Origin: a virus
DNA: 24,834 nucleotides
Strand: one strand, 5' to 3'
Virus record (IMG/VR): IMGVR_UViG_3300006919_011393
Coordinates: 1-24,834 of that record
In this document: in pieces, positions 55 through 24,138 of the stretch
Layout: every line of letters begins with the position of its first letter
Position numbering within the stretch: the first letter of the stretch is position 1
Translations under genes and position numbers: made by a program
The notes under the pieces: generated by a model
The model's input: only the letters and a program-made list of their open reading frames with translations
The model's database searches: none
What the model was told of the DNA's origin: nothing

Positions 55-276
55 TTATTCTGAGGGCTTTTTTGCAGTGGAAGCGGCTGCCTCCAGGGCA
101 GCCCGCTTCTGTTTAGCTACGTCTTCCATGCTGATACCAAGCACACCAGACACAGCGCCGATGACTGAAGCAACGATAGCTTCGGTCGGCAGGTCAGGAA
201 AGAAATGCTTAGCTAACACAGGGAGGAGGGCTGCTAGTACAGACAGCCACAGCTTACGACTCTTCATCTTGTTCAT
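55..276 (-). CDS. Holin-like two-helix membrane protein
   Basis: 73 residues. Two hydrophobic stretches, residues about 9-26 (LWLSVLAALLPVLAKHFF) and about 33-49 (AIVASVIGAVSGVLGIS), are joined by a short PDLPTE turn. Charged ends flank them: MNKMKSRK before and EDVAKQKRAALEAAASTAKK after. Size, hydropathy and position beside an M15 peptidase match small class II-like holins that open the inner membrane to release the endolysin. Two start codons occur, M1 and M4, separated by Asn-Lys, which may give two products. No strong ribosome-binding site is seen before either start. The last 20 codons form a 12-bp bulged hairpin (80-109). An alternative is a membrane-anchor (spanin) or antiholin. Confidence 0.65.
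   Translation of the reverse strand: MNKMKSRKLWLSVLAALLPVLAKHFFPDLPTEAIVASVIGAVSGVLGISMEDVAKQKRAALEAAASTAKKPSE
80..109 (-). repeat. Bulged inverted repeat, 12 bp, inside holin gene
   Basis: Plus-strand arms GAAGCGG-CTGCC (80-91) and GGCAG (97-101) then CCGCTTC (103-109). C102 is the single-base bulge and the loop is TCCAG. All 12 pairs are Watson-Crick. It encodes the RAALEAAAS tail of the holin. Confidence 0.8.
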
Positions 277-278
277 CT

Positions 279-833
279 TTAATACGACTTTTCTTTTTTA
301 GGTTTTCGATTGGGTTGTGACATCTCTTTTGTAGATGGCTGCGACTGCTCTGTAATTCTCTTGCCAGGTTTAAAGCCGGCTTCGTCTTGAAAGATTCTAA
401 TTTCTCTCTTGTCCATCTTAATTGGCTTGCGCTTTTTCATGCGAGCCTTCACCGCTTTAACTTTATCTGCGATCTTTTTCTTCTTTGTAATCTTAGGAAG
501 AATAGGAATTGTTCGCACAACCTTTTTCTTTTTTGGCCCATCACTAGGGTCATCATACTTTTTCGTCTGTTGATGAGGTCCTGTTTTGTTATGAGGTACA
601 TATTGTGGAGGCTTAAGCTTCTTTATTGCCATGCGTTCGGCTTCAGTCTTGCCATCGTCTGGTCCTTTGCCGACACCATACAGATCATCGTCAGTATAAT
701 TCTTTCGGTCCTCAGGCTTAATAGGCTCACCGTATTTATCAGTCGGTTGATTGCGCCGGCTGTTCATTTTCTTTTTGGTTTTACGCATGCGCTTTTTCAT
801 TTCCGCATTACTATAAAGAGATCTGCTAGCCAT
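279..833 (-). CDS. Highly basic, probably disordered protein of unknown function
   Basis: 184 residues with a very high density of Lys and Arg, few hydrophobics, and no membrane or enzymatic motif. Charged tracts are KKRMRKTKKKM near the N-terminus, KKKKVVRT in the middle, and VKAVKARMKKRKPIKMDKR in the last third; DDP, EE and DD clusters intervene. A GGAGC ribosome-binding site lies 8 nt upstream, and its ATG shares one base with the peptidase stop. The pI would be extreme. It might contact nucleic acid, peptidoglycan or membrane lipid; phage proteins of this sort also serve as DNA-binding internal proteins or lysis accessory factors. Nothing in the sequence decides between these. Reality of the gene is supported by its ribosome-binding site and coupled junctions. 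Confidence 0.6.
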   Translation of the reverse strand: MASRSLYSNAEMKKRMRKTKKKMNSRRNQPTDKYGEPIKPEDRKNYTDDDLYGVGKGPDDGKTEAERMAIKKLKPPQYVPHNKTGPHQQTKKYDDPSDGPKKKKVVRTIPILPKITKKKKIADKVKAVKARMKKRKPIKMDKREIRIFQDEAGFKPGKRITEQSQPSTKEMSQPNRKPKKEKSY

Positions 834-1216
834 TACTTGCTCCGGTGGTCCCAGCGTGCTGGGTTTAATCTAATGTCGTAGTGAGTAAAGGAGTTGTACC
901 TTCCAAGCCCACCATTAGGAATGCGATTGTGTTCCATCAAGCCAAGGATCGTATCCTGTAGTTTGTCGGGCGTGACCTCTGCACTAACCAAGTCGGCTGC
1001 CATGCTCTCAAGGTGTAGGCTTTGCGATGCTCCGCCTACCTTCTTGTTGTGCTTCGGGCATCGGTACGCACTGTTGATCTTCAGTGGTCCTACTAGATCC
1101 CTGATACGTTGCAGTTCCCACGCCAGATGACGTGCGATATGCTCGTTCCCAATGGTTCCGCAACACTTGCAACGGAACTCGATCGGACTGAAGTTCGGAG
1201 GCCAGCCGGGTGTCAT
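833..1216 (-). CDS. M15-family zinc peptidase (endolysin candidate)
   Basis: 127 residues matching the short phage Peptidase_M15 proteins: an N-terminal FRCKCCG turn, then INSAYRCPKHNKKVGG, SLHLESMAADL and FTHYDIR. Predicted zinc ligands are H68, D75 and H112, with the SxHxxxxAAD and HxD patterns intact. Enzymes of this type cut peptidoglycan stem peptides (D-Ala-D-Ala or L-Ala-D-Glu links). There is no signal peptide, so export to the wall would need the holin. The start shares one base with the upstream stop (TGATG). Downstream are the basic protein and the holin candidate, so this is likely the endopeptidase of the lysis cassette. Alternatively it may be a virion-associated peptidase. Length is normal for the family. 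Confidence 0.85.
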   Translation of the reverse strand: MTPGWPPNFSPIEFRCKCCGTIGNEHIARHLAWELQRIRDLVGPLKINSAYRCPKHNKKVGGASQSLHLESMAADLVSAEVTPDKLQDTILGLMEHNRIPNGGLGRYNSFTHYDIRLNPARWDHRSK

Positions 1217-1506
1217 CAGAATTCCACAAGGGTATAGACTGCTGTTTCGGTGTCATCATTTAAATAAATGGTAACGCCAGGCTGCATAGCCAGGGTCAGT
1301 GCTGCGCCAGGCTGGAGTAGGATACCCGTAGTAACATGCTCCTTGGTACCAACATACATGTTAACCGGCCCATGGTTTGATACAGTTACAGTACCATCTC
1401 GACCAGCAACAACATCATGCTTTGAAGTAGATCCTGATCCCACAGTAGCAAGTGTAGTCGTGGTTGATGCTGACCAGACAGGGTTGTTCTTATTTAAAAA
1501 GCTCAT
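1216..1506 (-). CDS. Small beta-rich protein, possible virion decoration
   Basis: 96 residues beginning MSFLNKNNPVWSASTTTTL and continuing as alternating hydrophobic strands with a Gly/Asn-rich loop (SNHGPVNMYVGTKEHVTTG) and a closing strand AVYTLVEF. There is a good GGAAG ribosome-binding site upstream of the ATG. The composition is that of a compact all-beta domain, such as capsid or tail decoration proteins and fibre tips. No known family is recognised. Its stop shares one base with the start of the peptidase gene. Together with the LamG gene next door it may form a decoration/adsorption pair; that is inference from position. Confidence 0.6.
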   Translation of the reverse strand: MSFLNKNNPVWSASTTTTLATVGSGSTSKHDVVAGRDGTVTVSNHGPVNMYVGTKEHVTTGILLQPGAALTLAMQPGVTIYLNDDTETAVYTLVEF

Positions 1507-1514
1507 CGTTCTTC

Positions 1515-2204
1515 CTATGGATGCGCCGGCTTGCCGGCATGATAGTCTCTAAGTATTTCGTCAGCGCTTAGCGCTCGACCATAAAACCGAACGGTATCAA
1601 TGTCGCCTGTAAAGTAATCATCAGTGTTACCACCTAATTGATGACGACCAGCTTCTGTGTTGATTGATCCCCACGACGACACGGGAAGACCTTGACCGAT
1701 CTTTGTAGAGCGAACAATGCCATCGACGTAATAGTAAGCGTTTGAGTTGCTTGCATCGAGTACAAGCACAGCCATGTGATATGTTCCTGTGTTGTAGGCA
1801 CCGCTTGCTTGTGGGTTTGTATAACCATGAGGAGCAAGACCGTTAAAAACAAAACTCTGAGCTAGCCCTGTGTCGTCAGTTTGAGCCAATAAAAAGCACC
1901 TAGTGCCCGTGATAGAATCTCGGCTAACGATGCGCTCGTTTCCCTGCGTAGGTGGATCAACGCTTTGCCTGTACCAAGCGACCACGCTAAAGTCGGTGGC
2001 AAACTCTAGCTTAGCAGGGTCGCCAAAGCTTACGAAGGACTCGCCATTGAAAGCCGGCCAAGTAAAAGCAGCGCCGATAGTATTGTCTGTCCCATTAGCA
2101 GGCGTCGGCATTAGGTCGTGCCAGGTCGTGCCACCGTGACTCAGCCGCTCGTAGCGAGCGGTTGCGTCACCGGTAGGTACTGGCTGTAGAAGAAACGGAT
2201 TCAC
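1515..2204 (-). CDS. LamG/concanavalin-type jelly-roll protein (probable receptor- or glycan-binding)
   Basis: 229 residues from a GTG start overlapping the previous stop (GTGA); the upstream AGAAGAAG serves as ribosome-binding site. Residues about 55-222 show the Laminin-G-like jelly-roll pattern: ATDFSVVAWYRQS, SGAYNTGTYHMAVLVLDASN, then AYYYVDGIVRS and the signature closing strand DIDTVRFYGRALSADEI (about 201-217). This ending is very characteristic of the LamG_3 type family. Such domains bind carbohydrates and appear in phage tail or surface-decoration proteins. The first 50 residues are unassigned and may attach it to the virion. It sits between the giant ejection gene and the lysis genes, an unusual place for an adhesion domain. 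Two strong hairpins lie in its coding sequence (1560-1579 and 2136-2170). Confidence 0.8.
   Translation of the reverse strand: MNPFLLQPVPTGDATARYERLSHGGTTWHDLMPTPANGTDNTIGAAFTWPAFNGESFVSFGDPAKLEFATDFSVVAWYRQSVDPPTQGNERIVSRDSITGTRCFLLAQTDDTGLAQSFVFNGLAPHGYTNPQASGAYNTGTYHMAVLVLDASNSNAYYYVDGIVRSTKIGQGLPVSSWGSINTEAGRHQLGGNTDDYFTGDIDTVRFYGRALSADEILRDYHAGKPAHP
1560..1579 (-). repeat. Bulged inverted repeat, 8 bp, in LamG gene
   Basis: GTC-AGCGC (1560-1567) pairs with GCGCT (1571-1575) and GAC (1577-1579). C1576 is bulged and the loop is TTA. Same outer stem, bulge, inner stem plan as the longer ones, but near the size expected by chance. Confidence 0.5.
2113..2132 (-). repeat. Tandem 10-bp direct repeat in LamG gene
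   Basis: The unit AGGTCGTGCC occurs twice back to back (2113-2122 and 2123-2132). The unit length is not a multiple of three, so the two copies are read in different frames. It lies directly beside the hairpin at 2136-2170. Confidence 0.75.
2136..2170 (-). repeat. Long inverted repeat, 14 bp plus one wobble, LamG gene
   Basis: GTGAC (2136-2140) pairs with GTCAC (2166-2170) and CCGCTCG (2145-2151) with CGAGCGG (2155-2161). Between them, positions 2142-2143 pair, 2144 makes a G.T wobble and 2141/2165 mismatch. The loop is TAG. Confidence 0.8.
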
Positions 2205-2320
2205 TTCTTCTTCTTTGGCTCAGCTTTTTTCTTAGCTGTTTTCTTTGGCGCTTCAGGTTCGGGAACCTCAACGTTTACTGGAGTGGCACCAGGCCCAACA
2301 TAAATAACTTTAGTAGCCAT
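2201..2320 (-). CDS. 39-residue Lys-tailed micro-protein
   Basis: A short frame reading MATKVIYVGPGATPVNVEV followed by PEPEAPKK and a Lys/Ala tail ending KKAEPKKKK. ATG is one base after the giant gene's stop and AAAGG lies upstream. The stop TGA overlaps the GTG start of the next gene by four bases, which ties both into the operon. The beta-hairpin-like N-terminus and poly-Lys tail suggest a nucleic-acid or membrane-contacting accessory protein, or simply a translational coupler for the LamG gene. Function unknown, but spacing and overlap make it a likely real gene. Confidence 0.65.
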   Translation of the reverse strand: MATKVIYVGPGATPVNVEVPEPEAPKKTAKKKAEPKKKK

Positions 2321-2321
2321 G

Positions 2322-5300
2322 CTACTTTACCTTTCTTGCAGCAGCTGCTGCCTTTTCTCTTGCAGCGCTTGCATCAAAGTCTCTTTTCCTTTGACGACCA
2401 AGCCTACCCATTTGTCTTTCTGCCTTATCCCATCTCATCTTTTTAGATTTCATTTCGGTTTTAAAATCTCGATCAAGATTAAACGGGATGTCCAACTTAA
2501 GCTTACGCCTATAGTCAAGATCAGTTCTAATAGACTGGTGATACTCTTGCAACACCGAGATAATGTGATCAATTCTTAGCTCTGAAAGACCGTTGGCATC
2601 AACTGTAGCACGGTTCTTTATCGGGTCTTTGTACTCTGTATTGTCTATTAGGTTTCTTCGCAGCCCATCCTTTAAGGCTTTGATGTATGGATTCATTTGG
2701 TTTTCATCGAGGAGCATCGCCCTTCGGGCGCTGGTCCTCGCTATGACTGACGCAGTATAAGTATCAAGATACTTTAACTGACTATCATAACCATCTTTAT
2801 CTGCTCGCTCTGCAAAAGTCTCACCCCCAAGGTAAGGCTCTTCGCCTGTTGAAAGAACCCAGTTGCCTCGGCGCTTTGCTAAGGCAAGGTCATCATCGGC
2901 TTTGATCTGATTCCTATAGGGAGAAACATATCCACCCGGATCAATTAAGTTTGATCGGGCAAGGAAGGTCTTTGCTACCTGTGTATTGTTAACACCCAAA
3001 AACATTTGAGGTGTTTTAGATACAAGGATCTGTGCTTTTTCTGTTGCGGTTTTAGCATCATACATATCCCGCCAGATAGAAGCGATAAAACCACCAGTCA
3101 TATTTCCAATAGCTAAGTAGTCTTCTGTCGTAAGAGTTTGACCTGAGTTAACAAGCCCCATGAAGTAATCAACTTCGGCGTTTGCGGAAGTAGGAATCTC
3201 TTGGAAACCACCACCTTGTCCTGGAGTTGCAACCACTGTCATCGGGTCATAGTTAGCAATCTTTTCTTGTTTTGTTTTGTCGAAGCTATCAAGCCAATCA
3301 GTCATCTTCTCTGCTAGCAGGGCCTCAAAAGAAAATAAGTTATCATGAATAAGCTTAGACATTTCCATTGGGTTGCCATTGCGCCAACTCAAAAGCCTTG
3401 CCTCATTGTATGCGCTTGACTCGGTAGCTAAAAGAGATGGCGTACCTCGTTGGCTTTTTGATTTACCCATTAACTCAAGATCGTTTGAGTGAGGATAGGC
3501 AAAGCTCTGAACAGTAGTAAGGTAAGCGTATTGCCTTAGCGCTTTACTAGCATTTAGCTTTCCAAGTTTCATTGCTGCGCCTGCGCTGTTTGTCTTAATG
3601 TCATTACGGAACATGTTATCAAGCAACGTGTTTGCAACAACGCCTTTCTTTACGCCAATGATATCACTGGCAATTGCGGGGAAGGAGATGAAAGGATTAA
3701 CAAGAGCGCTAAAGCCACCGAGCTTTCCGACTCGAGCAGCCTGAACAATTCGTGGCACGTTTCTGTAGTTAAAAATCCGACCAAAGGTTCTTCGTGCTGC
3801 CCATGATGCAATGGTCTTATCAACAAAGGGATCTTCCTTTGAAGGGTATTGTTTTTCTCGGCGCTTAGTAATCCGATAGATACCTTTTTTGTCTTTATAA
3901 AGTTTGGTGTCGCCACGCTGAGAAGTCTGGAAACTAATGTGGTCACCAGGCTCAAGTGAATCAAGTAACTCGTACCCTTCAATTGCTTCTCTTAGTACCT
4001 CTGCTTTGCGGGGAAGGTTGTCACCTTTCTGATAAAGGTCCTGCCAAAGCTGCTCGTAAAACTCACCGGCTTTATAGACAGGAGACTCTTTCATTTTTTG
4101 CCAGGCCTTTTTGTCGCCAAGCTTTGTCGTGCTTAAGAAGTCACCAAGCCCACGGCCCTGCGTTTCAACAGTAACCATGTCCATCAAATCAATACCTGTG
4201 AACCGATCAATAGCATCCATTGCTTTAAGGTATCGCTGCGTTTCCTTGCTGAAGCTTCCAAGGTTTTCACGGTACCATTTAGGGTTTTCTTTATAGGTTT
4301 TAAAGAGACTGTTGGTTGCCCAGATTCTAAAAACAATCGAAGGAACACTTTCGCCAGTAGTCATAGAGATAGCAATCAAGTTACCTGCAATGTTTCCGCC
4401 CTGGGTAAGTAAAGACTTAACTGTAATGCCGCCCTTAACCATGCTCTGGAATGCAGCACCTAAGTTTGACATGTCTTTAGTTAGCTGAGCATCCCATGCC
4501 ATGCCCTGTCTAATCTCAGGGTGCCACTGAATGTCATTAACGACATCGGGGATCAGCTCTTGAGGAGCTGATGCCCCTTCGTTAATGGGCCGGCCCTGCA
4601 TATCCTTGCGACCTGTTGGGTTTAGATCCGTTAACCTAGCTTCTCTAATGCCAGCTTCTCCGGCTTGGGTATAAGTACGGAAACCTTCTGGGTCCAGGTT
4701 ATCAAACAAGCTGCGCATGGGGCCAAGGGCCTCACCTTCGCCAAGCATTTCTCGACTAGCGTTTTGGATAGCTACCCGCAGAGTTTCAAAGGGCTGCTGC
4801 CATTTAATATCTGTTGAGTAAGTGCCGTCCCATAGCCCCTGGATAATCCCACCTAGATCTTTCTCAGGACGATCAAAGAAAGAAGAGAAACGATCTACCG
4901 AATTAGAGATGTCCATCCACAGGCTGCCCGGCTTTGCTCGCTTATCTTTTTGCCAGCCCTTACCAAAGATTTGGTTTAGTTCTTTGTCAGAAATATCCAG
5001 CTTGTATCTGTTGCCATTGTCATCGAGCAGGTCTGGGATCTTATGAAGCTCATCCATTTTTAGGTTGTGCTTGTTTGCAATTTGGTTTTCCATTCGCTGC
5101 CTATAAAGACGCTGAAGCTCTTTGACTGCGTAGGTTACATCGCCCTTCATCCATGCACTAAGATCTTTGTTGGTTACTTTCTCTACCGATGCTGTGGTTA
5201 CTGCTGCTCCGGTATCTTTATTATAAGTCTCAAAGTAATTGTCTCTTGGCTCCATCATATCTAATTCTTTATTATAGAACTCTTTCATGAATCGAAGGAG

Positions 5301-8300
5301 CCTATTAGGCAGGGACTTAATAGGTGTCCCATCAAAGATATTATAAAATGCAATCTTAGACATAGCCTCGGGGATAGTGTCCCCATAACTTACATCTACC
5401 ATCGACATGTAACCACGATGAAGATTGTGCAAGTTGCTCATCTTTACGCCCGCTGCGTACTGACCATGGAATCTTTTAAACGCTCCCATCTGATGGGCTT
5501 TGCGTTCTTTATTCTTTAAGCCGCCAAAGACTTCGGGGATAATCTGATAAAGATCATAGGTTCTTTTAAACCTACCACCACCAACTTCCATTCCAGCGTC
5601 ATAAAAGAACTCGAGATACCGAGGCACGTCACGCAGGGCTAAGCCGCCTTCAACTGAAAACTTGTCAGTCGTAGGCGCTTTAGCTTTAGAGTGAGGAGCA
5701 GCCATTGGCTTGGCTCTAAATGGAACTTCGTTACTCTTTAGCCAGCTTAAGCTAGCCAGTTTAAGTCTTGCGACTTCGCTGTCTGGCAAAGAAGTTTTGT
5801 GTGCTGCTTGGTAGTCTCGCTGTGCTCTTTCCACAACGTGCTCGACAACCTTCATCTTAAAGCCGTCGTCAAGTAGGATGCCATGCCCACCGTTCTCGTT
5901 CCAGATTTCCATTAGCGCAGCAGTCCAGGACCGCTGCTCTCCAAGGGACTTCCCTTGGCGCTGCATATCGCTAACGAAATCTTTTACCCAAGCTGTGTAT
6001 TCTTTTGACCAGCCACTATCCAAGCTCATAATAAGAGGGCTGCGTTGTGGCACCTGACCGGGCTCGCTAAACAATGCACCACTGTGAATAAGCCGTTGCT
6101 TTAAATAGCTTCTGTCCTGTTCGGTTAGTGTAGTGTCTCCGATTTGCCTTTCAATTCCTTTGGCTCGCTCGACTTGGATTCCTTCTTGCTCATCAAGGAT
6201 CTTGCTTAGAGCGTATTGCTCTGACGGATTTAAATCAGAATCAGCAAGGCGTTTCCGTGCTTTGTTAAAGCTGGTAATGCCGCCCTTTTTAATAGCATCC
6301 CTAATAAGATAGAACTCACGCTTGAACCGTTTAGGAAGCGGCACTCGATAACTTGTTAGGTCTTGACCCAACCGAATAGCGCTTTCTGCAACGCTGTAAT
6401 AAACATTAGCTTCTGTTCCTTTTGTAGCTACGCTTTCTTCAAGAGCTTTCTTTAGTTGCGAAGACACATAATCAAGAGCCCCTGCCCATTCATTCTTAGC
6501 GATGCGATCCCACATATTGTAAATGGGATTCCCGTTAACTGATTCATTCCAAATGCCTGGGATCTCTAGCGATTGGGCCAGTCGAATGTTCTGCTCATTC
6601 TTAATGTAGTCACGTCGGAGTTTTCCTGTCGGGTCTTTGACATCAAGACTGTCTAGTAGCTCTTGCCTCTTTGTGGTTTCGCTTAAGGCTTGAGCTAAAT
6701 CCTCTGGTAGTTTGCGACCTTTTTTAATTGCGTTGCGAATAAGAACGGGCAGAGCATTCAGTCTTCTTTTGATCTGAGCACCAAGGTCAGAAACCCGCTT
6801 TGATCCTGGAATGTTTCTAGTTGTTCCACGCTGTGTCAGCGCTCTGTTTCCTGCTGTGCCCCTAAGCGGAGTAAAGTCCTCAAGCCACTCAGCCTTAACA
6901 ACGCCTTCAACAAACTGAGTTAGTACCTCCGCTATAACTACGGCCTTTTCATCTAGTGCTTGCGCTCTTTCTTTAACATTTCTGTTGTAGCTTTGGACCT
7001 CTTCAGAGCTAAGCGTTCTTTCTTTCTGGGTTTTTTCAAAGGCTTTAATGTTTTCATTCGCAACATTAACACGTCGGTCAAACTCTTTAATGACAGGGGT
7101 AAGCTTAGTAGCAATATACTTTTTAGCCGAAGCAGATTTCCCTGAGCCAAGCATCTCAGTAACTAGAGTCCCATCTTCAATTGCTTGAAGCTCTTCTACC
7201 GGTGTGCCCTCGCGACCATAAGGCCGATCAATCCCAGCGGATTCCATAATCTCTTTACGGATTCGGCCGATCAATTTCTTTTGGAGAGGCAGCGGAAGGT
7301 TTGCGCTAACAATTCTAGCGGCAAGATCTTGCGCCTGTGTTCCTTGCTGACCTCTAAGTTTACCAGATTTTTTTGCGGCAATATGTTTCTTTGCCATCTC
7401 TCCGATCTCTTTATCGAAGCTACGGTAAACTTCCTGCTCTGACTTGGGCTTGCCCTTAGTCTTGTAGCGCTTTTTGCTTTTACTTCTTTTGGGTTTAGGT
7501 GCGATTCGATTAAGAATTGCTCTTGATCGAGCATCTCCAGCTTTAGCTTTAGCTGTAAGATTCTTAACTATTGCTTGTCCCCTCTTACTCTTAAGAACAA
7601 ACTTCCTTTTTTTCTTTGCAGGCTTTGCGTCTGCATCTGTTGTTGCTTCAACTTTTTTAGGTTTTTCTTTTTGGAAAGACATGAGCTTGGGATCTTTCAT
7701 CCCGGCTTCAACCACGGCTTCGTTTAAAGACTTAACCTGACCAGGAGAAAGCTCTCCTTTGGCTTCAATGTATTCTCCGAGCTTGCTTGCAGCAGCTAGC
7801 CCGGAAGGATCACCAATAGTTTCTTCTTTGTTGCCTTTACCAAAGCGCCGCTCGATAGCTTTTTTTCGGGCAGTGGCTGTCTTCTGGTCAACAGATCCCT
7901 CCCATGCGTGCTCAGCTCGGCTAAGAAGTTCTTTGCTGTCAGCATCTCGTCTCGCTCTATCAAGGAGCGAGCGAGCAGAAGGAAGATTGCTTTGGCTAGT
8001 AACAGATCTAAAGTTTTCTTTTTCTTGGCGGATGATGTCATCAATAAGATCGCTACGCTTTAATCTTTTCCTGACTACAATTTGGCGCTGCTCACTGCGC
8101 GCTGAAATCTCACTAGGACTTACGCCTTGAGTCTCAGCCATTTGCTCAACGTCGTATGATTCAGGGTCAAGTTTGCGTGAGTTGTTTTTCTCTTCAACCC
8201 AATTAAAAATGTCCTGTTTTGTTTTGAGCTTATCTAACTCAGCTTTTAATTTTCGAGTATTAAGTTTTGTTTTTTGCCGCTTACTTTTTCCACCGTCTTT

Positions 8301-11300
8301 AAATACTTTTGGATCTTTATAAGCATCGTCAAGCTTTACGCCCCGACTGTTTAACTCACGGACAACATCAACATCTGACATCTCGTCGAGTGCTGCACGC
8401 TCAAAGTCTTGTCGTCGTTCTAGTTGTGCAGCCTTGCCTTGCTTAATCTTTTCTCTGGCACCTGCATCATAACGACTTGGGTTGTAACCTGGAGCATCGC
8501 CCCAGTCATTGTGAGCAGCCGGTCGACCTGCTACTCTTTTTGTTCTTGTCGTTAAGATCCGCTGGGCAATGTCATCTTTTTTCTTGATGCCTTTAAGCGG
8601 AATGTTTTCCTTTTTAGCGATAGCTTTAAGGTCTTTGACTGTAACCTTTGGGTCAAACAGTCCCTGCTCAATACCAGGATGTACGTCATAGCCCTTCACG
8701 TCCATCTCAGTGAGCTTCTCTACTAGCTCCCTACGCACAGCCGTCTCTGTCCTTTTGCGCTCGATAGGAGCCGCCCTAGCGGCTCTTCTCGAGCGTGCAG
8801 CGCTGTCCTTAACTCGTGATCCATCTTGATCTAGGAGATCGCTGTCACCTCGACGCCAGTTTATTTTAGCTTTTTCACCAGGAGCTACTTCAAGTGTCCA
8901 GGTTCGAGGAGTTACTCGATCCATACCCGGAGCTACATCCGACTGAGCCTTGGGGCTTTGCTCTTTTGGCCTTGGCGAAATAGTAAGAACGCCATCGTTT
9001 GCCCTAACCTCTGGGACAATAGACAGGCTTTCATCGTACTTCAGTCCTCTTTTGTTTGCTTCTGCCACAAGAGTTTCCATGGGCATTTCCATGTACTTTG
9101 TGCGGGCAGCGTTTCGCTCAGCTTCATTCAGCCGTGGCTTTCTTAGTGTGTCAGGACTTCCTTCATACGTTTCCATTTCGTGTTGGATTTCTCCCTCACG
9201 TCCTGGTTTCTTCATTGTATGAACCCTGGTCTGATCAGGCTTGTCACTAATTGAGTCAATGCCTGTGCCCTTGGCTTTGTACTGAGGGCTTCGCGTTTCA
9301 GCGGTTAGGGGCGTCTCTAAGCCAAAGGCTCTTCGCCCTGTAAGCTGGTCCCATAACGGACTGCCAATAATAACCTGTCCAGTATCAGAAATAATACTAG
9401 GAATGTTTTGATTAACCCTTTCCATGATTTCACGGAAAGCTTTTACCCCTACTTCTTTTTGAGCAATTCGCATTGTGCGAGCAACTTTTTCCATGTTTGC
9501 TAGATCAATAGCAGGAGCCATGCTTTCGGCCGCTGACTCTAAAACATTTACAAAATAAGCTAAGCCATTTGCTGTGTACTCAATACCAACACCAGCCGCA
9601 CTAGTAACAGGCGGCCTATAAGCAGCGGTCTCACCGTCTCTTTGGACTGGCATATCTAAATCAGAAAACGCACCATCGTCTCGACTTAAAACCTCACCTT
9701 CTTTTGCTAAGCTTTCTACGGCGGTATCAAAAGAGTCCTGGTATTTTACGTTCTTTGCAGTGTTCTCTGGATTAAGACGGTCTAATACTAACTGCTCAGC
9801 TTTTCGCAGCAGCGTAATCATTGCCTGATCTCGTGCTCGCTCAGCATCTATTGCGGGACGAGATAAGCGCTCGCCTCTTTCTAGCCTGCCAGTAGCTTCT
9901 AGTGATAAAGTACCAGGATCGCTTTCAAGTTCTTTGTGAATATCATTTGCAGCTTCACGAACAGCTTCAGAAAACCTTTGTCGGTTATCCATTTTAACTT
10001 GATCAGGAGTTGCGCCTTGGAGAGTTCCTGATTCAGTCTTTAATGTTTCAACACCAAGGTCTGGCATTGCACGAGGAGAAGGCTCGTAAGGGTCTACGTT
10101 TTGAGGGTACTGGTGAACCTCTTTAGTTGCTCCGCCTTCCCATTGTTTCGTTTCATTGTTCCAGCGTTGTGGCTCTTTAACAATTCGATAGCCCTTACGA
10201 GGAACATGTTCGCCAGACCTTTGCTGTGGAGTATCTTCTGGTGTTGTCCGGTAAAAAGGGTGCTCTTTATCTACGCTAAAAAGAACTCCATCGACCACTG
10301 TTTCGCCAATGGCTTGTTCAGCAGCGTAAGGAATATCGCCTTTCTTTTCTCTTAGGCTGTAAGGAACAACCTCCTGCATACTATCAGGATCAGGAACAAA
10401 ATCAGGGTCAGCCTGCCTGCCCATTTCAAGCTCAGCTTGACGCACGCCTTCCTTGGCTTGCTGCATTCCTTCTGCAACGCCTCGTCGGGCTCGCTGGCTT
10501 TCTAGCCCTAAAGCATGAGACTCTGCCTGGCCTTGGCTACGACGAGTCGTTGCTTTGTATATTTCGTTATTTAAAAGTCTAAGCCTTGGGCTTTTTTTAA
10601 CTGCGGCTCCAAAGAAATAACGTGCTGCCATTGGCACACCAATGCCAATGGCTGCACCCATAGCCCCGTGCGTAGGAATACCAGTCCAAAAGAGATGAGC
10701 AAAATCTTTAACAGCCTTACGGCCAATATCACGAACACGCCGAGGCTCGAGTGCGCCTGGAACTCTTTTGATTCCCGGAACAGAAACAGTAGCCTGAGGA
10801 TTGGCAACGTCATCCCCCTTAAGGGCGAAGTCTCTACCTACTCGACCCGCTTCGCGTATAACGCTTTTAGGTACTCCGGGGATTGTGCCTGGATCAAAAT
10901 CCCCTACAGCTTTAATGCCAGCAGCAATTGGCTCAGCCGCATCTTTAACAAGTCGACCGGTAGCTTTACCAAGCGCAGCGGCAATAGAGATGGGAGCCCA
11001 GTCGCCAGCTTTAGCGCCTAAGTCTAGGGTTGTTTCTAAAGCTTTTTTTGTTCGAGGGTTTTTTGCTAGGTGCTCACTTAAACTTACCTTTTGAACTTTT
11101 GAAAGTGTCCCTTTGGCAACAGCGCCTGCTAACCGGAACATGGCAGGGGCAAAAAGAGCACCAAGAATAACAGGCTTGCGAACTACTTTAAGATAGTAAT
11201 CAGGATCTTTAGTAAAGCCCGCAGTAAGAGCGCCAGCTAAGCCGCCGCTCATTGATCCGCCCATTTGAAATGCTGCATCGCCACGGCTTTGACCTGGCTG

Positions 11301-12209: not shown

Positions 12210-14579
12210 CTAGCCTTCCTGTTCTGCTTTATTTGCAGCTGCCTGCTCTCTAGCTGACTTGCGCTGTACTGGCTTTCTTCTGGGGCCTGTAGGCCTAGGC
12301 TTAGAAAGAGGAACCAAAGGGGCTACAGGAGCCGCTGGCTGGTCCCAGGCACTACGCATACCCATAACAAAGTTTGAATACATAACACCTTCTTTAGGCA
12401 TCTTCTGTCTTCCCGCAAGCCACTTGTTAACTCGGCCTCTGCCATAGTTATAAGCGAGCAGAGCAATAGCCTCTGCATGATCTGCGTTAGGGTTTGGCCC
12501 CCTTGTTGAATAGTAGTCAATTAATCGCTTCATGTATTTAGCAGAAGCCATAGCTGACTTATCAACATTATAATAATCAGCGTTACTCTTTAACCCAATA
12601 CCTGGACCACCAGGCCCTTTTGGTTCTGGAATAATTTGGAACGGACCTTTAGCATTTTTCTTGCTGTCTTTTTTAACTGAGCCAAAAGCTGATTCAACAA
12701 AAGCAATTCCAAGCACAATGTTTGGATCAATCCCATATTTTTTACCGGCTTTAGTTGCTGCATTTTTAAATTGGTTGCTTGGCATACGAACCTTACCGTT
12801 TACGATTCGTTTGCTTTTCTTCATTTTGTGCCACTTTTCAAAGTCCTTAGTAATTTTTAAGGGATCTTCGCCTGCGTGGTAATTGAACCCAGCCCTTGTC
12901 ATGTGCGGTGGAAGCTCAATTAAGAAATCATCAACGCCTCCTTCCAGCATTGCTTTTTCTTTTTCAACGGTCTCCGGGCTTAAGTTATTGGGATTAGATG
13001 TCATAGGCTCATTAGAGCCAGACATAGGAACAGGCTTAGGAACGCGCTGTTGATAGATAGGAGGCTGTTGCGGAAGCTCTACCAAAGGAACTTGTTGCGG
13101 AGACATTACTGGAGGCATTGATTGCTGACCAGGAACAGAGGGGCTAGGCGGTTGCGAAGATCCGCCAGGCGGCAACATCGGACCGGCTGGCTGATCGTCA
13201 GGAATGCCTGCATCTTTTGCAACTGCTAACGGATCATAACCATCGGTAGCTCTATCAATAGCTGGGTCCCTCATTTGCTCAGGCGTCATTGTTGACGGAG
13301 CGCTAGGTTGTGATGGTAACGCCGGTGTAGCAGGAGGTGCGGGCGGAGGAGCGGCTACTGCCGGCTGAGCAGGCACAGGTGCCGGAACTGCCGCAGGAGA
13401 TTGTGCAGGAGCCGCTCCCGTTGCCGGTTGAGCAGCCGGCGCGCCCGCTATGATCGGTGCTCTTACTCGTCCGCGAGGGCTTTTCCAGCCCTCGTCGGTC
13501 CATCGCTGAGCGGTAGCTAAAGAGTTTTCAGCAATATTACTATCGTCCGCTGTAGCTAAAATTTCCTGAGCAACAGCAAGTTCTCTTTGAGCTTTAGGGT
13601 TGTCCTGATACATGTTCGGATAAAACCTGTAAGAATCTATAGTGCGCAAAGCCCAGTTAATATCATTAAACCGCTCTCTAAAGCCTGGTCCCCATGTACT
13701 TTCTTGTTGAGCAAGTCCAATAGCCGCATCTCTAAAATTCCTAGCCTTCTGGAGCAGGTTGCTTCTTGTTGCAAGATTACCTTTAGGGTCAGCAATTAGG
13801 GCTTCTTCTTCGTCGCTAAGTCTGCGCCTATACGTTGTTCTGTCTGGCTCCATGACCCAAAAACTAGGGTCCGGTCGATTGCCAGAGGTTGGGCCGTAAA
13901 AACCTTTAGGTCCAAAGGGATCGGGACCTAAGCCAGAAAGGGTTGAGGCAGCAGAAAACTGGCTCCACTTACCGCTTCGCCCCCACTTCTCCTGAAGCTT
14001 AGTAACGCCTGTTTGATTTATTACAGCGGGCCTTCGTGACGAGCCCTTGCCTTTAATTCCTCGAGCTTGTTGTGTCATGGGCGGCAAGACGCGTTTGAAT
14101 TGCTTGGTAAGCGTCTCCTGGTCTACGCCTGTAAATCTATTTAATAACCCACCAGTGCCAGGCCGGTTATAAGCCTGGTTCATTTTTTCTATAGCTGCTC
14201 TACGTTTTGCATAATCGCTAGCGCCCGCTGCCTGCTTTAGGCCCTGCTCATAACTGTTAGCTTGAAGTTGTTTTTTAACAAACTCTTCTTCAGATTGAGA
14301 TGGCTCAGCAAACGGCTGCCCCTTGTTAAGCTGAGAAAGACGCTTGTCAGCTAGCTGCTGATTGTAATCTAAACTTGCTTTTGATTTAGCTGCCTGTTCC
14401 CGGCTGTAAGATTGAACAGCATCAGTAACTGTACCACCAATTTTATCAAGCAAGCCTACCGCAGTGGCTACCCCTTCAGGGGAAGCCCACTGCTCCTGAA
14501 CCCTTTGAGTCATTGTTGGCTTAAAAGGGTCAGCTTCAAAGTTTGCCTTGAAGACTGAGGGGGGTAAGATTCTAGCCAT
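12210..14579 (-). CDS. Internal virion protein with lytic transglycosylase (SLT) domain
   Basis: 789 residues. The N-terminal half (1-370) is helical, Lys/Arg/Gln rich and unrecognised. Residues about 377-520 form a long Pro/Ala/Gln-rich flexible linker. The C-terminal part (about 595-740) is a soluble-lytic-transglycosylase domain: GIAFVESAFG with the predicted catalytic Glu629, GPFQI (645-649), and AYNYGRGRV (Y710-N-Y-G). These domains cleave the glycan strands of peptidoglycan with formation of 1,6-anhydro-muramic ends. In phage virions they open the wall locally for DNA ejection. The extreme C-terminus is basic (RRKPVQRKSAREQAAA). In T7 the equivalent activity sits at the N-terminus of gp16, the last of the three ejection proteins; here it is at the C-terminus of the middle one. 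The ATG follows the upstream stop by three bases. Confidence 0.85.
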   Translation of the reverse strand: MARILPPSVFKANFEADPFKPTMTQRVQEQWASPEGVATAVGLLDKIGGTVTDAVQSYSREQAAKSKASLDYNQQLADKRLSQLNKGQPFAEPSQSEEEFVKKQLQANSYEQGLKQAAGASDYAKRRAAIEKMNQAYNRPGTGGLLNRFTGVDQETLTKQFKRVLPPMTQQARGIKGKGSSRRPAVINQTGVTKLQEKWGRSGKWSQFSAASTLSGLGPDPFGPKGFYGPTSGNRPDPSFWVMEPDRTTYRRRLSDEEEALIADPKGNLATRSNLLQKARNFRDAAIGLAQQESTWGPGFRERFNDINWALRTIDSYRFYPNMYQDNPKAQRELAVAQEILATADDSNIAENSLATAQRWTDEGWKSPRGRVRAPIIAGAPAAQPATGAAPAQSPAAVPAPVPAQPAVAAPPPAPPATPALPSQPSAPSTMTPEQMRDPAIDRATDGYDPLAVAKDAGIPDDQPAGPMLPPGGSSQPPSPSVPGQQSMPPVMSPQQVPLVELPQQPPIYQQRVPKPVPMSGSNEPMTSNPNNLSPETVEKEKAMLEGGVDDFLIELPPHMTRAGFNYHAGEDPLKITKDFEKWHKMKKSKRIVNGKVRMPSNQFKNAATKAGKKYGIDPNIVLGIAFVESAFGSVKKDSKKNAKGPFQIIPEPKGPGGPGIGLKSNADYYNVDKSAMASAKYMKRLIDYYSTRGPNPNADHAEAIALLAYNYGRGRVNKWLAGRQKMPKEGVMYSNFVMGMRSAWDQPAAPVAPLVPLSKPRPTGPRRKPVQRKSAREQAAANKAEQEG
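13471..13498 (-). repeat. Bulged inverted repeat, 10 bp, transglycosylase gene
   Basis: CCG-CGAGGGC (13471-13480) pairs with GCCCTCG (13488-13494) and CGG (13496-13498). T13495 is bulged and the loop is TTTTCCA. It lies exactly where the N-terminal helical part gives way to the Pro/Ala linker. Confidence 0.65.
14461..14493 (-). repeat. Bulged inverted repeat, 13 bp, transglycosylase gene
   Basis: GCAGTGG (14461-14467) pairs with CCACTGC (14487-14493), CT (14468-14469) with AG (14484-14485), and CCCC (14471-14474) with GGGG (14479-14482). C14486 is bulged, A14470/A14483 mismatch, loop TTCA. Encodes EQWASPEGVATA. Confidence 0.75.
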
Positions 14580-14582
14580 TGT

Positions 14583-15179
14583 TTAATCCCACCAAGAGCC
14601 GAGAATGCCTTTGTTCTGGCTCTTATAAGTGCCATCAGCATTAAGATATTGAGCCGCCATTGCATTAGCTGCTTTTGGATTCTTAACTCTTATCCTTGCA
14701 ATGATTGCTGTAATTTCTCTAGCTGCCTGTTCTTCATTGTCGTTAAAGAAACCCTGTGCGCCACTAATTGCTTTGTTTGCCTCGGTCTGGCCTTCGGCTA
14801 AAGCTTCTGAGTAGTCTGATTCTTCAGTGCCTTGAGCAGCGGCATACTCTTCTGCTTCAACTTCCTTGCCGGTTGTTAAGGCAATTGCTTCATCAACCAT
14901 GCGCTGATCTTCTTTGCCCTGTAAAATCCCCTGTTGCTCTGCTGCCATTCCAACGTCGGCTGCTGCGGCAATAGCCCCACCACCCCTGGACTGATTGCGC
15001 TGTCCAGCAGCAGAGGATCTTGCAGCCCCAAACCTAATGCTTCTTTGGTTGTCTTTGGCCTGCCCCTTAAGGCGCTCGACTCGATCCTTAGAGTCTGTAA
15101 CGCCTTGTTGTTTTGCAGCAACGGCTCGAGATCGTCGGTCAGTTCTTTGTTGGTACTGGGTTTCAGCGGTAGTTGGCAT
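14583..15179 (-). CDS. Small internal virion (ejection) protein, gp14-like by position
   Basis: 198 residues, Ala/Gln/Glu rich with many Arg and Lys in the first third (RRSRAVAAKQQG, RLKGQAKDNQRSIRF). An Ala-rich stretch follows (GGGAIAAAADVGMAAEQQG), then an acidic middle (KEVEAEEYAAAQGTEESDY) and a helical C-terminal part ending WWD. A GAGG ribosome-binding site lies 8 nt upstream of the ATG. It comes immediately before a transglycosylase-bearing protein and a giant protein. T7 gp14 (196 residues) has the same size and place in the gp14-gp15-gp16 ejection set. Sequence similarity to gp14 is not evident; the assignment rests on size, Ala-rich helical character and order. Alternatively it is a scaffold-like internal protein. 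Confidence 0.55.
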   Translation of the reverse strand: MPTTAETQYQQRTDRRSRAVAAKQQGVTDSKDRVERLKGQAKDNQRSIRFGAARSSAAGQRNQSRGGGAIAAAADVGMAAEQQGILQGKEDQRMVDEAIALTTGKEVEAEEYAAAQGTEESDYSEALAEGQTEANKAISGAQGFFNDNEEQAAREITAIIARIRVKNPKAANAMAAQYLNADGTYKSQNKGILGSWWD

Positions 15180-15182
15180 GGT

Positions 15183-16748
15183 TTACCTCAATGTTTTTTT
15201 GCAAATAATATAGATCCAGCTTCCGCCAAATCCAGTAATAGTAACCGGTGCTCCATAGGAAGCAGGGTCGGTAACACCATCGCTGATTTTCCAGCGAATA
15301 TCTAGATACTGCTCACCGCCTTGCATTAGGGTGCCACCATTTAAAGCTGTTCGCGATGAGTTTCCTGTTGCAGCGTAAATCGGTTTTCCCTGAGGCTTAT
15401 AGCCGGTCCCGCCTGCCCCAGTTAAAGGGCACTGAAGAAGATCCCACGAATAACCAGAGGTTGCACCGCCAAAATGAAACCGATCACCCCGATCAATTAA
15501 ATAGTTTCCAATTGTCGCAGGTGTCCAGCTTGCATTCGCAACTTGTTCGACGTGAAAATGATCAGACATGTATCCGCTAATTAGCCCTACTCCAACATTG
15601 TGAGTTAGATTCGGGCTAGCAGCAACGCTGGGTCTTGTTGATAAGGTTCCGTTTCCTGCTGTGTAATTTGAAGCGATAATCACATGGTGGATTGCAATAG
15701 GATATTGCAATGCCACCAGCGCTCTATCCATTGTTTGGAAGTTTCCTGCTCCAGCAGATGACCAAGGCAGAAAATGCGGATTCATTTGATTGCCAATAAC
15801 ATGGCCTGGTGATGGATAGGTACCACCGTGAGTCTGAGGCTGACCACCAAACATTGGCACAGCAATAACCTCATAAGCCATATCACTAGATAAGCCTTCT
15901 TTAATCCTGGTTTGAGCCCGACGATTAAAACCGCCCCTTAGTTTTCGCCCAACAAAATCATCAATTAATTTAAGGTTGGTATTAACCCCAACATTTGTTC
16001 CGGCTTTAATCGTTGTGTCGCCAGCAGGAACGGTTGGAGACTGAGGAGTAAAGTTTCTCGATGTTGCTGGAGCGTTCTGGGAGTTAGCAGATTCATCTCT
16101 AGTTGTAAGTTTTGTCTTAAACTTAAGGCTAACATTTAAAGATACTCGGCAAGTATCTTCAGGAACAGTTATTTTAACTAAGTATGATTTGGTGTGGTCA
16201 AACAGAACAGACAAGCCAGCTTGAACATGAGGGTTCATTCTATTGTAAGGATTAATTAATCCAATGTCAGGCAGGGAAATTGTAAAGACACTGTTACCGA
16301 ATGAGTCAAAATTTGTGCTGTCAATTTTATGGCTAAGTATATCTACAGTTAAAGACGCACCTTTATTGTAATCGACAGTTCCCTGAGCAGGCTCTGCCGC
16401 ATCAGTTTGAATTCCATTAACAGATCCATTTTCAGTTTTTGTGTCTTGTCCGATTGAGACTTCTGTTAGCTCATAGTTTTCAATATCGTTTACTGTCCCT
16501 GTAAATTTATCCTGCAAAGCTGGCAGAATAAACGGAGCAGAAATTAAACTAATATGATTAGGCGCTCCGGTGTTTGCTTTTGTAATCAAAGGAAAAGAAA
16601 GGTTAATCCTAAACGTTCCGTTTGATTTTTCATAGTTATCAACAGGCAAACCAGAAGCAGTTAGCGCCGTTAGTGCTGAAGCAATCGGATCAAAAACGTG
16701 CTCGACTAAAAGCTTAATCCCTCGAGTTAATCGTTTGAAACTAGTCAC
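15183..16748 (-). CDS. Virion structural protein, probable tail fibre/appendage, unknown
   Basis: 521 residues beginning at a GTG codon (GTG ACT AGT) inside the last codons of the preceding gene. It has an amphipathic N-terminal helix (FKRLTRGIKLLVEHVFDPIA), then a beta-rich body, an Ala/Ser/Pro linker near residues 220-245 (NSQNAPATSRNFTPQSP), and a Gly/Asn/His-rich C-terminal half (HFHVEQVANASWTPATIGN, YIICKKTLR at the end). Composition and arrangement are those of a fibre or receptor-interacting protein. It ends just before the ejection proteins, where podoviruses often place appendages. No motif identifies it. Codons near residues 345-356 form a 14-bp bulged hairpin (15685-15718). Confidence 0.6.
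   Translation of the reverse strand: MTSFKRLTRGIKLLVEHVFDPIASALTALTASGLPVDNYEKSNGTFRINLSFPLITKANTGAPNHISLISAPFILPALQDKFTGTVNDIENYELTEVSIGQDTKTENGSVNGIQTDAAEPAQGTVDYNKGASLTVDILSHKIDSTNFDSFGNSVFTISLPDIGLINPYNRMNPHVQAGLSVLFDHTKSYLVKITVPEDTCRVSLNVSLKFKTKLTTRDESANSQNAPATSRNFTPQSPTVPAGDTTIKAGTNVGVNTNLKLIDDFVGRKLRGGFNRRAQTRIKEGLSSDMAYEVIAVPMFGGQPQTHGGTYPSPGHVIGNQMNPHFLPWSSAGAGNFQTMDRALVALQYPIAIHHVIIASNYTAGNGTLSTRPSVAASPNLTHNVGVGLISGYMSDHFHVEQVANASWTPATIGNYLIDRGDRFHFGGATSGYSWDLLQCPLTGAGGTGYKPQGKPIYAATGNSSRTALNGGTLMQGGEQYLDIRWKISDGVTDPASYGAPVTITGFGGSWIYIICKKTLR
15685..15718 (-). repeat. Bulged inverted repeat, 14 bp, tail appendage gene
   Basis: TGGTGG-ATTGCAAT (15685-15698) pairs with ATTGCAAT (15704-15711) and CCACCA (15713-15718). 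G15712 is the only bulge and the loop is AGGAT. It has the same plan as 80-109 and 4548-4577 but is less GC-rich. Encodes LVALQYPIAIHH. Confidence 0.85.
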
Positions 16749-17625
16749 GTTCTAATCGCTCTAAAAGAGTAAGGCTCATTGTTGGGATCATAGTTTGCCA
16801 GGGCTTTGTACCAAAGGGAGCCTTGTTATCATCAGGCAGAATCAAAGAAAACCGAAGCTGAGAGTATGGTGGCACTGGAATCCTAAGGTTTTCTTCCCGA
16901 ACCCTAAGAGAAGTAGTCAGACCATTACCCATTGTAGATAAAAGATTAGGCTGAATGTCAGCAGAAAAAGCAGGCGGACTAATTGCTGTAGCTAATGACT
17001 GAGCACTTAACGCTGTAAAATCGTATTTATGCCAAAGAACATTATTAGATGTTTGGATGTTTGGAATAAACGGATTGTCTAAAGTTAAAGTCAAATGAAT
17101 ATTATCAATTGAAGAATTAGGCGCTCGCCCATCAGGAGGGGATGAGTCGTACTCATACCCATTAACAAAAAAATTAGCGTAAGAAGCAAGCAACGCATCT
17201 ATACCATCAATAACAACAGGCGACGCACCAATGGCTAAAGTTGTTGTCCAAGCAACTTGGTTTGCTCCGTAACCAGGATTGTTTCCGGTAATTGGAGACT
17301 GGTAATCTAAACGATTGCCTTTAAACCTAGCCCGATTAATTGTTGGAATACCGCCCGCTGTGCTTGGGTTGTAAACAGGCATGTAAGGTAAAGCGACATA
17401 GTTGCCAGCAATTGCTGACTCAGTAGCTAGTCTGGTATCTGCATTATCAGTCCAAGGAAGGTACTTCATAACAACTTGTGTTTGAGTCCACCGTTGCTCG
17501 AAAAACCCATCAGGAACTTCGTTGATAAATTTTTCTAAGTCCTGGAGCGCAGACTCTATTCTGTCTCCATCAATAGTTGTTCCGTCAGAAAACTGCTGAT
17601 CTGTAATGTGCCGAATAGATGACAT
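16741..17625 (-). CDS. Virion structural protein, probable tail appendage, unknown
   Basis: 294 residues. The N-terminus (ITDQQFSDGTTIDGDRIESA, followed by a helix ending VPDG) resembles a segment I associate with appendage proteins of environmental podoviruses, a short helical attachment unit followed by beta structure. The rest is beta-rich without charge clustering, includes NGYEYDSSPPDG and IPVPPYSQLRFSLILPDD, and ends MSLTLLERLERD. A good ribosome-binding site (GGAGAAG) lies just upstream, and its start shares one base with the previous stop. Its own end overlaps the next gene by eight bases. No enzymatic motif is visible. Position between nozzle and ejection genes suggests a tail fibre, spike or collar component; the specific role is not known. 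Confidence 0.6.
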   Translation of the reverse strand: MSSIRHITDQQFSDGTTIDGDRIESALQDLEKFINEVPDGFFEQRWTQTQVVMKYLPWTDNADTRLATESAIAGNYVALPYMPVYNPSTAGGIPTINRARFKGNRLDYQSPITGNNPGYGANQVAWTTTLAIGASPVVIDGIDALLASYANFFVNGYEYDSSPPDGRAPNSSIDNIHLTLTLDNPFIPNIQTSNNVLWHKYDFTALSAQSLATAISPPAFSADIQPNLLSTMGNGLTTSLRVREENLRIPVPPYSQLRFSLILPDDNKAPFGTKPWQTMIPTMSLTLLERLERD

Positions 17626-18272
17626 CAGACTTCTCCACCAATTCTTGTCACAGTTAACCCGTGCGAATGAGTAGTCATATTGCTTCCGCCTATAATGTAC
17701 ACACCTGGAATAGGGCCAAGAGCGGGAGCAGCTGCTGCGTTAGCATTTTGGACTACAGTGCCTACCCCGTTCATAGCCCCTGTTATATGACTAGACCTAA
17801 AGATGCAGCCCGAAAACGTGGCGCTACTTCCTGACTCAACCAAAACAAAACACTTAGTAGTAGTGGGAGCAGGAACCTCAATAGGAGCATTATACTTCCT
17901 TTGAAAGATGCAGTTATTAAAAGTAACTCGAGCATTGTTACTGATCTTAATTAAATGACTAACGTTTGACGGATCGTTTCTTTGAGTAAAAAAAAGCCCA
18001 TTCAAACAGCTATGCGATTTTATATTTACAATGCGCGTTACTGTTGCCCCTGGAGCACCCCAAAGGGTGCTCAGGGGCTTAGTAAGGGAGAAGCCCTCAT
18101 GAGTACCGCTGCCCATAAAGTAATCGTTGTGGGACTCCGCTCGCTCCTGAAGAGCTTCACCATTGTTTACTCTAATAACATCACCAGCAAACCCAGCCTT
18201 AATGCTGTTGTTCATTGATTCCTGGCCAATAACACCTAAGCCAGTAATGTCATTAAAGCTAAAGCCACTCAT
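17625..18272 (-). CDS. Probable beta-helix tail appendage protein
   Basis: 215 residues. The middle shows short repeated strands with stacked Asn/Cys/Phe positions, ARVTFNNCIFQRK and then SATFSGCIFRSSHI about 50 residues later. This is the ladder pattern of right-handed parallel beta-helices used in phage tail spikes and fibres. The C-terminal part is Ala/Gly rich with HSHGLTVTRIGG. No catalytic residues are evident, so it may be a structural or receptor-binding tailspike-like component. The ATG overlaps the nozzle stop by four bases; an AGAAGG ribosome-binding site sits about 11 nt upstream. The codons for residues about 65-77 also form a 14-bp hairpin (18046-18078). Too short for a complete enzymatic tailspike. 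Confidence 0.55.
   Translation of the reverse strand: MSGFSFNDITGLGVIGQESMNNSIKAGFAGDVIRVNNGEALQERAESHNDYFMGSGTHEGFSLTKPLSTLWGAPGATVTRIVNIKSHSCLNGLFFTQRNDPSNVSHLIKISNNARVTFNNCIFQRKYNAPIEVPAPTTTKCFVLVESGSSATFSGCIFRSSHITGAMNGVGTVVQNANAAAAPALGPIPGVYIIGGSNMTTHSHGLTVTRIGGEV
18046..18078 (-). repeat. Bulged inverted repeat, 14 bp, beta-helix gene
   Basis: GCCCCTG (18046-18052) and AGCACCC (18054-18060) pair with GGGTGCT (18065-18071) and CAGGGGC (18072-18078). G18053 is the only bulge and the loop is CAAA. Encodes KPLSTLWGAPGA. Confidence 0.85.
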
Positions 18273-23667: not shown

Positions 23668-24084
23668 TTACCCGCCTATTAAATCACCACCGCCACCATA
23701 TGCACCATACGCAGCAGCAGCTAAAGATCGAGCCCTTGGCCCAAACTTGTTTTTCTTAAGTGTGCTAGCAGCGTTCACAATGTTTGAAGCTGCTCCAGCT
23801 ACGTCGGGCTTTTCACCCCTTTTAGCTCTTTTATAGCCAGAAGTTGCACCGCCAATACCACCAATAATGCCGCCAATAGTGGCCCCAATAGGCACAGTAA
23901 TCGGAGCGAGTGGGCCACCGATCGTACCAATAGCAGCACCGGTTCCAGCGCCAGCAGCAGCGCCACCAACTAAGCCAACACCCGTTCCTGTTCCTACAGC
24001 TTCTGTTGACGGGCCTTCGTACCTTGCGCTCCCAGGTGGAACGCGAGGTGCAAACTTAGAAGCGCCAAACTCATTAAAACTCAT
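23668..24084 (-). CDS. Small glycine-zipper protein between capsid and portal
   Basis: 138 residues starting MSFNEFGASK. A longer in-frame GTG start at 24129 exists, but it would translate the hairpin into 15 extra residues; the ATG at 24084 has a G-run 5 nt upstream and is preferred. The middle (about residues 32-90) is a long Gly/Ala stretch with repeated GxxxG spacing (for example GATIGGIIGGIGGATSG). It is hydrophobic enough for one or two packed membrane helices. A basic segment (YKRAKRGEK) and a Gly-rich tail (YGAYGGGGDLIGG) follow. The stop codon abuts the portal start with no spacing (TAAATG), so the two are probably translationally coupled. Its function is not recognised. Glycine zippers occur in membrane-active and pore-forming proteins, so a minor virion or ejected membrane protein is possible, as is a linker or head protein. 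Confidence 0.75.
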   Translation of the reverse strand: MSFNEFGASKFAPRVPPGSARYEGPSTEAVGTGTGVGLVGGAAAGAGTGAAIGTIGGPLAPITVPIGATIGGIIGGIGGATSGYKRAKRGEKPDVAGAASNIVNAASTLKKNKFGPRARSLAAAAYGAYGGGGDLIGG

Positions 24085-24138
24085 AATACCCCCAAGGGGG
24101 GTGCCCACCCCCCTAAGGGGGTGGGGCACCAGAAAGCA
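24085..24138 (-). promoter_or_regulatory. Structured spacer after the capsid gene: two G/C-run palindromes
   Basis: This is the only sizeable spacer in the window. The transcript folds into a strong hairpin starting 8 nt after the capsid stop (positions 24130-24100). A second palindrome follows, with C and G runs around 24099-24088, ending a few bases before the next start codon. No U-run follows either stem, so it is not a canonical intrinsic terminator. Plausible roles are stabilising or processing the abundant capsid mRNA, partial attenuation, or masking the GGGGG ribosome-binding site of the next gene. Confidence 0.6.
24100..24130 (-). repeat. Bulged inverted repeat, 13 bp, capsid spacer
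   Basis: On the plus strand GGTGCCC-ACCCCC (24100-24112) pairs with GGGGGT (24117-24122) and GGGCACC (24124-24130). G24123 is a one-base bulge and the loop is CTAA. All 13 pairs are Watson-Crick. It is the only member of the hairpin set lying outside a coding sequence. Confidence 0.85.

Follow-up and report, generated by a model that had tools for sequence, protein, structure and literature searches.

The window, by which we mean the whole stretch of DNA that was analysed, is a single contig, 24,834 bases long, from an uncultured virus. All of its main genes are carried on the minus strand, and they encode the C-terminus of the major capsid protein, a portal protein (PHROG portal match, E 6e-50), tail proteins, a transglycosylase-containing protein, a 3294-aa protein, a LamG-domain protein, an M15 peptidase endolysin and a small membrane protein. 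Three genes are referred to repeatedly below.

24139..24831, minus strand: major capsid gene, C-terminal part
17625..18272, minus strand: 215-aa gene, bearer of the covarying hairpin
2322..12206, minus strand: 3294-aa gene, bearer of most of the private hairpins

The 3294-aa reading frame (2322-12206) is a single ORF in the position of an ejection or internal virion protein; its homologues are 2916-3233 aa long, and DNA similarity among the relatives is nearly nil. Part of a 34,178-base contig, G001, matches the window at 99.96% identity, and the sole clustered differences between the two, at 4605-4755 and 19286-19289, fall outside all hairpins. About 20 related contigs were gathered by portal, tail and terminase searches; these relatives are partial metagenomic contigs with ORFs called mechanically. 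A DNA search of the phage collection with the window matched no cultured close relative, the best-listed terminase match in that collection was 28% identical, and no relative was found among the genome contigs searched. The clade is one of tailed phages with a podovirus-type gene set.

Hairpin excess in the window and its clade

Each hairpin was scored as its number of pairs minus 2 per mismatch or bulge base, with Watson-Crick pairs only and loops of 3-8 nt. An earlier note on this DNA had listed eleven imperfect hairpins. All are present and fold as claimed, with energies of about -18 to -28 kcal/mol whichever strand is folded, and a scan of the window with this score recovers all 11 together with four weaker ones at 5638-5684, 7946-7975, 13471-13498 and 14594-14624.

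80..109, minus strand: near the 3' end of a 73-aa holin-like ORF; in-gene, conserved
2133..2174, minus strand: LamG-domain gene, codons 11-24; conserved
2708..2740, minus strand: 3294-aa gene; homologue not alignable here
4535..4587, minus strand: 3294-aa gene; 22 pairs with core 4548-4577, the strongest of the window; private
5638..5684, minus strand: 3294-aa gene; weaker, score 9
7946..7975, minus strand: 3294-aa gene; weaker, score 9
8758..8795, minus strand: 3294-aa gene; private
10622..10657, minus strand: 3294-aa gene; absent from homologues G018 and G019
11850..11874, minus strand: near the 5' end of the 3294-aa gene; its apex, CCCCCCTTAAGGGGGG, is common to hairpins elsewhere in the relatives' genomes
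13471..13498, minus strand: 789-aa transglycosylase gene; weaker, score 9
14461..14493, minus strand: near the 5' end of the 789-aa gene; absent from ungapped homologues
14594..14624, minus strand: 3' end of a 198-aa gene; weaker, score 9
15685..15718, minus strand: 521-aa gene; absent from 7 ungapped homologues
18046..18078, minus strand: 215-aa gene; conserved, covarying
24100..24130, minus strand: intercistronic, 9 nt past the major capsid gene stop; no U-tract

Ten of the eleven originally listed hairpins lie in ORFs, in keeping with the earlier description of all but one as in-frame; 24100-24130 falls between the capsid stop and the gene that follows, provided that this gene starts at the ATG at 24084. 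At scores of at least 9, 10, 11, 12 and 13 the window holds 15, 9, 7, 4 and 2 hairpins, respectively. Synonymous shuffles (n=500) in which protein, codons and dinucleotides are all preserved exactly gave means of 2.3, 0.76, 0.31, 0.064 and 0.016 and maxima of 7, 4, 3, 2 and 1 at the same thresholds, and dinucleotide shuffles of the window gave 1.35, 0.40, 0.13, 0.046 and 0.014. These means bear out the earlier estimate of about 0.3 such hairpins per 25 kb by chance, and the shuffle comparison that had been proposed alongside it yields 7 observed against 0.31 expected at a score of at least 11. The exact synonymous and dinucleotide shuffles rule out chance or composition as the cause; the hairpin excess in the window is real.

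The excess is also a property of the clade and is missing from its near outgroups. The 21 related contigs together contain 85 in-gene hairpins at a score of at least 10, against about 11 expected, and the ratio of observed to expected climbs with score, from 1.13 (score 5-6) through 2.7 (9), 6.3 (11) and 17 (12) to 144 (at least 13). In ten clade contigs the in-gene hairpins scoring at least 11 number 7, 4, 2, 2, 2, 6, 8, 4, 4 and 4, where synonymous shuffles at the same threshold predict 0.1-1.2 each. Six outgroup contigs with recognisable terminases (G023-G028) have 0-1 in-gene hairpins scoring at least 11 against 0.1-0.4 expected, and T7, lambda, Jasmine, Pascal and HTVC010P have 0-1 hairpins of that strength and no excess. 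An initial scan that covered every terminase relative and used dinucleotide shuffles showed the same division between clade and outgroup.

Conserved, intercistronic and private hairpins

The hairpin at 18046-18078 occupies the same codons of the 215-aa gene in seven genomes (G001, G002, G003, G004, G006, G010 and G019). Its inner stem exists in three versions, AGCACCC/GGGTGCT, GGCTCCC/GGGAGCC and GGCAGCCC/GGGCTGCC; the bulge lies on either arm among the orthologues, and the amino acids vary along with the inner stem. When these peptides were recoded with random synonymous codons, the observed score was reached with p<=0.004 in every genome. A second hairpin, in the terminase gene of G001 and outside the window, is present in ten contigs representing nine distinct sequences. 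Two of its pairs are exchanged on both sides (U-A/C-G and A-U/G-C), and the share of paired alignment cells is 94.7%, which falls to 27-47% when the partner is slid by 1-3 columns; with 10 of the 19 pairs invariant, the alignment varies too little to yield strong covariation statistics. Random synonymous recoding attains the observed score here with p<=0.001, and the G018 terminase has the identical peptide without the hairpin. Pairing is kept by compensatory change in both the terminase and the 215-aa-gene hairpins, which fits a selected mRNA structure and is also expected under selection at the DNA level.

Other hairpins are conserved in sequence, at orthologous sites only, and such orthologous copies are non-independent observations. 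All 30 nt of the 80-109 hairpin are identical across five genomes. The 2133-2174 hairpin is identical over 42 nt in G002, has a single change in G022 and is absent in G007; G019 has a different 11-bp stem at this site that encloses the same loop codons. In its homologue of the giant gene, G019 carries a hairpin whose 30 nt recur unchanged in G007 and G018, between flanks that are 53% identical. Examples of stem versus flank identity at orthologous sites are 0.96 versus 0.53, 0.93 versus 0.52 and 1.00 versus 0.76.

Between genes, hairpins associated with the capsid gene, an early gene and the last late gene lie 2-18 nt past stop codons and are conserved. The hairpin at 24100-24130, 9 nt past the capsid stop, has counterparts in seven contigs. 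Its sequence, GGTGCCCCACCCCCTTAGGGGGGTGGGCACC, lacks a U-tract in all seven, and it is a candidate mRNA stabiliser or processing site. The early-operon hairpin, of the CCTATCCCC..GGGGATAGG type, is found at 2056-2095 of G001 (oriented; L013) and is nearly identical in about ten contigs; it is placed past a stop codon and ahead of the ribosome-binding site that follows. Another intercistronic hairpin follows the last late gene. Taken alone, these members look like ordinary phage operon hairpins. We considered intrinsic (rho-independent) terminators and rejected them, as no U-tract was found on the transcript strand after the conserved hairpins. As a separate observation, the start codon of the LamG-domain gene is enclosed by a 12-bp hairpin (GAAGAAGAAATGAATCCATTTCTTCTTC) in G002 (30093-30120) and G004 (20875-20902, both oriented), and relatives have a sequence similar to this hairpin.

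The intercistronic hairpins also bear on the idea that the hairpins are recombination joints that mark or promote the boundaries of module exchange, as has been reported for T4-type stem-loop cassettes. Ends of DNA similarity do fall near hairpins more often than permutation predicts (63 versus 38). The capsid and early intercistronic hairpins alone account for this effect, however; private hairpins show 24 such ends against 21.8 expected. We regard recombination joints as a very unlikely explanation. One patch of about 150 nt, G001 5101-5250 (oriented), is 95% identical to G015 in a background of 67-83%, contains a hairpin and looks like a recent exchange.

The majority of in-gene hairpins are private to one genome: the homologues retain the protein without the pairing, and relatives that align ungapped have no counterpart at these sites. 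Private hairpins cluster in genes that change rapidly, the 3294-, 789- and 521-aa genes among them. The earlier note would have abandoned selected structure if homologues kept the protein and lost the pairing at every locus; that pattern is found at many private loci, while at least four conserved loci depart from it. Nearly all hairpins align with their homologues ungapped, which also argues against another of the causes that had been proposed, in-frame insertion of palindromic mobile elements like those of Rickettsia. Although the hairpins do sit in reading frames, sequence is shared only by orthologues and C-rich apices, with no sequence family among them, and we reject insertion as having next to no chance of being correct.

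A mutational origin was the third proposed cause. Hairpins would be made and kept, largely without selection, if replication switched templates from one arm of a quasi-palindrome to the other. Such template switching has been proposed as a source of RNA hairpins (Monttinen and Loytynoja, PNAS 2022, PMC8794818), and yeast cases place template-switch hairpins in coding DNA as well (PMC8604942). Beside this precedent, the process would account for strand symmetry, for the slight over-representation of even weak hairpins (score 5-6, above) and for the 215-aa-gene hairpin of G010, in which compensatory and amino-acid changes accompany a shifted register. Two direct tests gave it no support. An inverted copy of at least 9 nt nearby covers 5 of 3195 clusters of at least three substitutions, against 2, 0 and 1 in control orientations, a test of limited power because private hairpins lie in poorly alignable genes. 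At 41 private sites both arms have diverged to an equal degree, with no overwritten arm (arm difference versus control, 0.19/0.19, 0.15/0.17 and 0.09/0.12). Moreover, conserved stems evolve more slowly than their flanks, bulges persist even between genes, and a bias in the closing pair, described below, is not predicted by template switching. We consider this origin improbable; if the hairpins did arise in this way, they would reflect an unusually active quasi-palindrome process.

Shape and strand symmetry

Only hairpins with short loops are in excess. With intergenic hairpins included on both sides of the comparison, loops of 3-8 nt number 100 against 28.5 expected, and loops of 9-60 nt number 58 against 51. 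Of 59 families, counted by a rough similarity criterion that merges C-rich hairpins too readily, 33 have C-G as the closing pair, compared with about 23% in shuffles. The ratio of single-bulge to perfect families is 16:4, versus about 43:84 in shuffles, so perfect hairpins are rarer than expected. This lends some support to the earlier impression of a recurring one-bulge plan. The companion claim, that the bulge is mostly on the 5' arm, holds for the single bulges of the window and fails across the clade, where in-gene families divide 7 (5') to 6 (3') and the side switches within one orthologous hairpin. The loop-length limit, the C-G closing bias and the scarcity of perfect hairpins fit selection for folded hairpins.

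As had been noted, the hairpins have no common sequence, the exceptions being orthologues and C-rich apices; a C-rich/TTAA/G-rich apex is common to in-gene and intercistronic hairpins. A 5-mer search for a flanking motif found none beyond what orthologous copies explain, and Rfam 15 at gathering score gave no match in the window. In a codon-register test for synonymous tuning, shuffles were equally uniform.

The strand on which the hairpins fold was addressed through the mismatches that they tolerate. One-sided changes in conserved stems comprise 26 G.U, 30 A.C and 32 others, and the defects of the hairpins include 17 G.U versus 21 A.C. Scans that tolerate G.U pairs returned 114 sense and 129 antisense hairpins, and their energies are also equal. 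The signature of a sense-strand RNA, with G.U exceeding A.C and sense exceeding antisense, is absent from the conserved stems and from the scans.

These results weigh on the possibility that the hairpins are selected mRNA structures of long polycistronic transcripts, acting as 3' exonuclease barriers, processing sites or pauses in elongation or translation, with intercistronic copies, such as the one that follows the capsid gene, setting the mRNA levels of individual segments. The conserved positions 2-18 nt past the stops of the capsid, early and last genes, the early hairpin ahead of a ribosome-binding site, the apex shared by in-gene and intercistronic hairpins and the restriction of the excess to short loops are all consistent with such a role. 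Against it stand the parity of G.U and A.C, the equal counts and energies of the two strands, and the lack of U-tracts and of an Rfam match. Strand-neutral pairing speaks against the mRNA fold being the sole target of selection, and we find this explanation doubtful. Of the first cause offered by the earlier note, a selected mRNA structure, the selection is supported; a fold specific to mRNA is not supported, since sense and antisense are equal.

Interpretation and comparison with known systems

Selected structure is supported by the excess over synonymous shuffles, conservation above flanks, compensatory change and the C-G closing bias. The hairpins are very probably selected and specific to this clade, even though most in-gene hairpins are private and neither a shared sequence nor a convincing flank motif was found. 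Our preferred explanation, to which we assign a probability of roughly 0.4, is that the clade has been selected for many short-looped imperfect hairpins, in and between genes, that more likely act as DNA. Each hairpin would work as a folded nucleic-acid strand. That strand would more likely be DNA than mRNA, given that the two strands retain Watson-Crick pairing to the same extent, and it may fold while single-stranded in replication or recombination or be extruded by supercoiling. Action at the DNA level, considered by itself, falls somewhat short of an even chance: we infer this lean from pairing, and long stems could tolerate either mismatch. The location of intercistronic members past stop codons, some before the next ribosome-binding site, is of an RNA type and speaks against it.

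Under the preferred explanation, exact position would be mostly free, such that sites may come and go wherever the protein allows, with a few becoming fixed. The putative partner could be a replication or recombination protein, a nuclease barrier or another factor. A more specific version, which we offer tentatively and think unlikely to be right in full, envisages a genome-wide set of sequence-free, mostly position-free and strand-symmetric DNA hairpin sites, selected in coding DNA and read by a putative structure-specific DNA-binding factor in replication, recombination or packaging. Structure beyond the genetic code has rarely been shown inside the genes of dsDNA phages; here it is found clade-wide, with near outgroups lacking it, and the apparently strand-neutral pairing sets the hairpins apart from the usual mRNA-structure account. 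Hairpins of this kind in phage late genes are not described in the open papers searched. If selected, the hairpins point to a step in these phages, so far unrecognised, that reads structure.

Several known systems share features with the hairpins described here. Rickettsia palindromic elements are inserted sequences with related copies. Both are palindromic sequences within ORFs, but the present hairpins are neither insertions nor related copies at several loci. T4-type promoter-early stem-loop cassettes are intergenic promoter cassettes. The resemblance lies in conserved phage hairpins and in the similarity boundaries near two intercistronic families; unlike those cassettes, the hairpins here are mainly in genes, and the private ones have no enrichment of boundaries. 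In T7, RNase III sites and the terminator after gene 10 are intercistronic mRNA hairpins. The strong, conserved hairpin that immediately follows the capsid gene, and others between early genes, recall this arrangement, from which the clade differs in having its hairpins mostly in ORFs, with no U-tract and no sense-strand preference for G.U. The mRNA hairpins of T4 are among the subjects reviewed in PMC3014915. Template-switch hairpins are alike in the compensatory change in long stems, the strand symmetry and the occurrence in coding DNA. They differ from the hairpins of this clade, which have neither multi-base inverted-copy footprints nor a pattern of one arm derived from the other, and in which stems are conserved above their flanks and bulges are kept.
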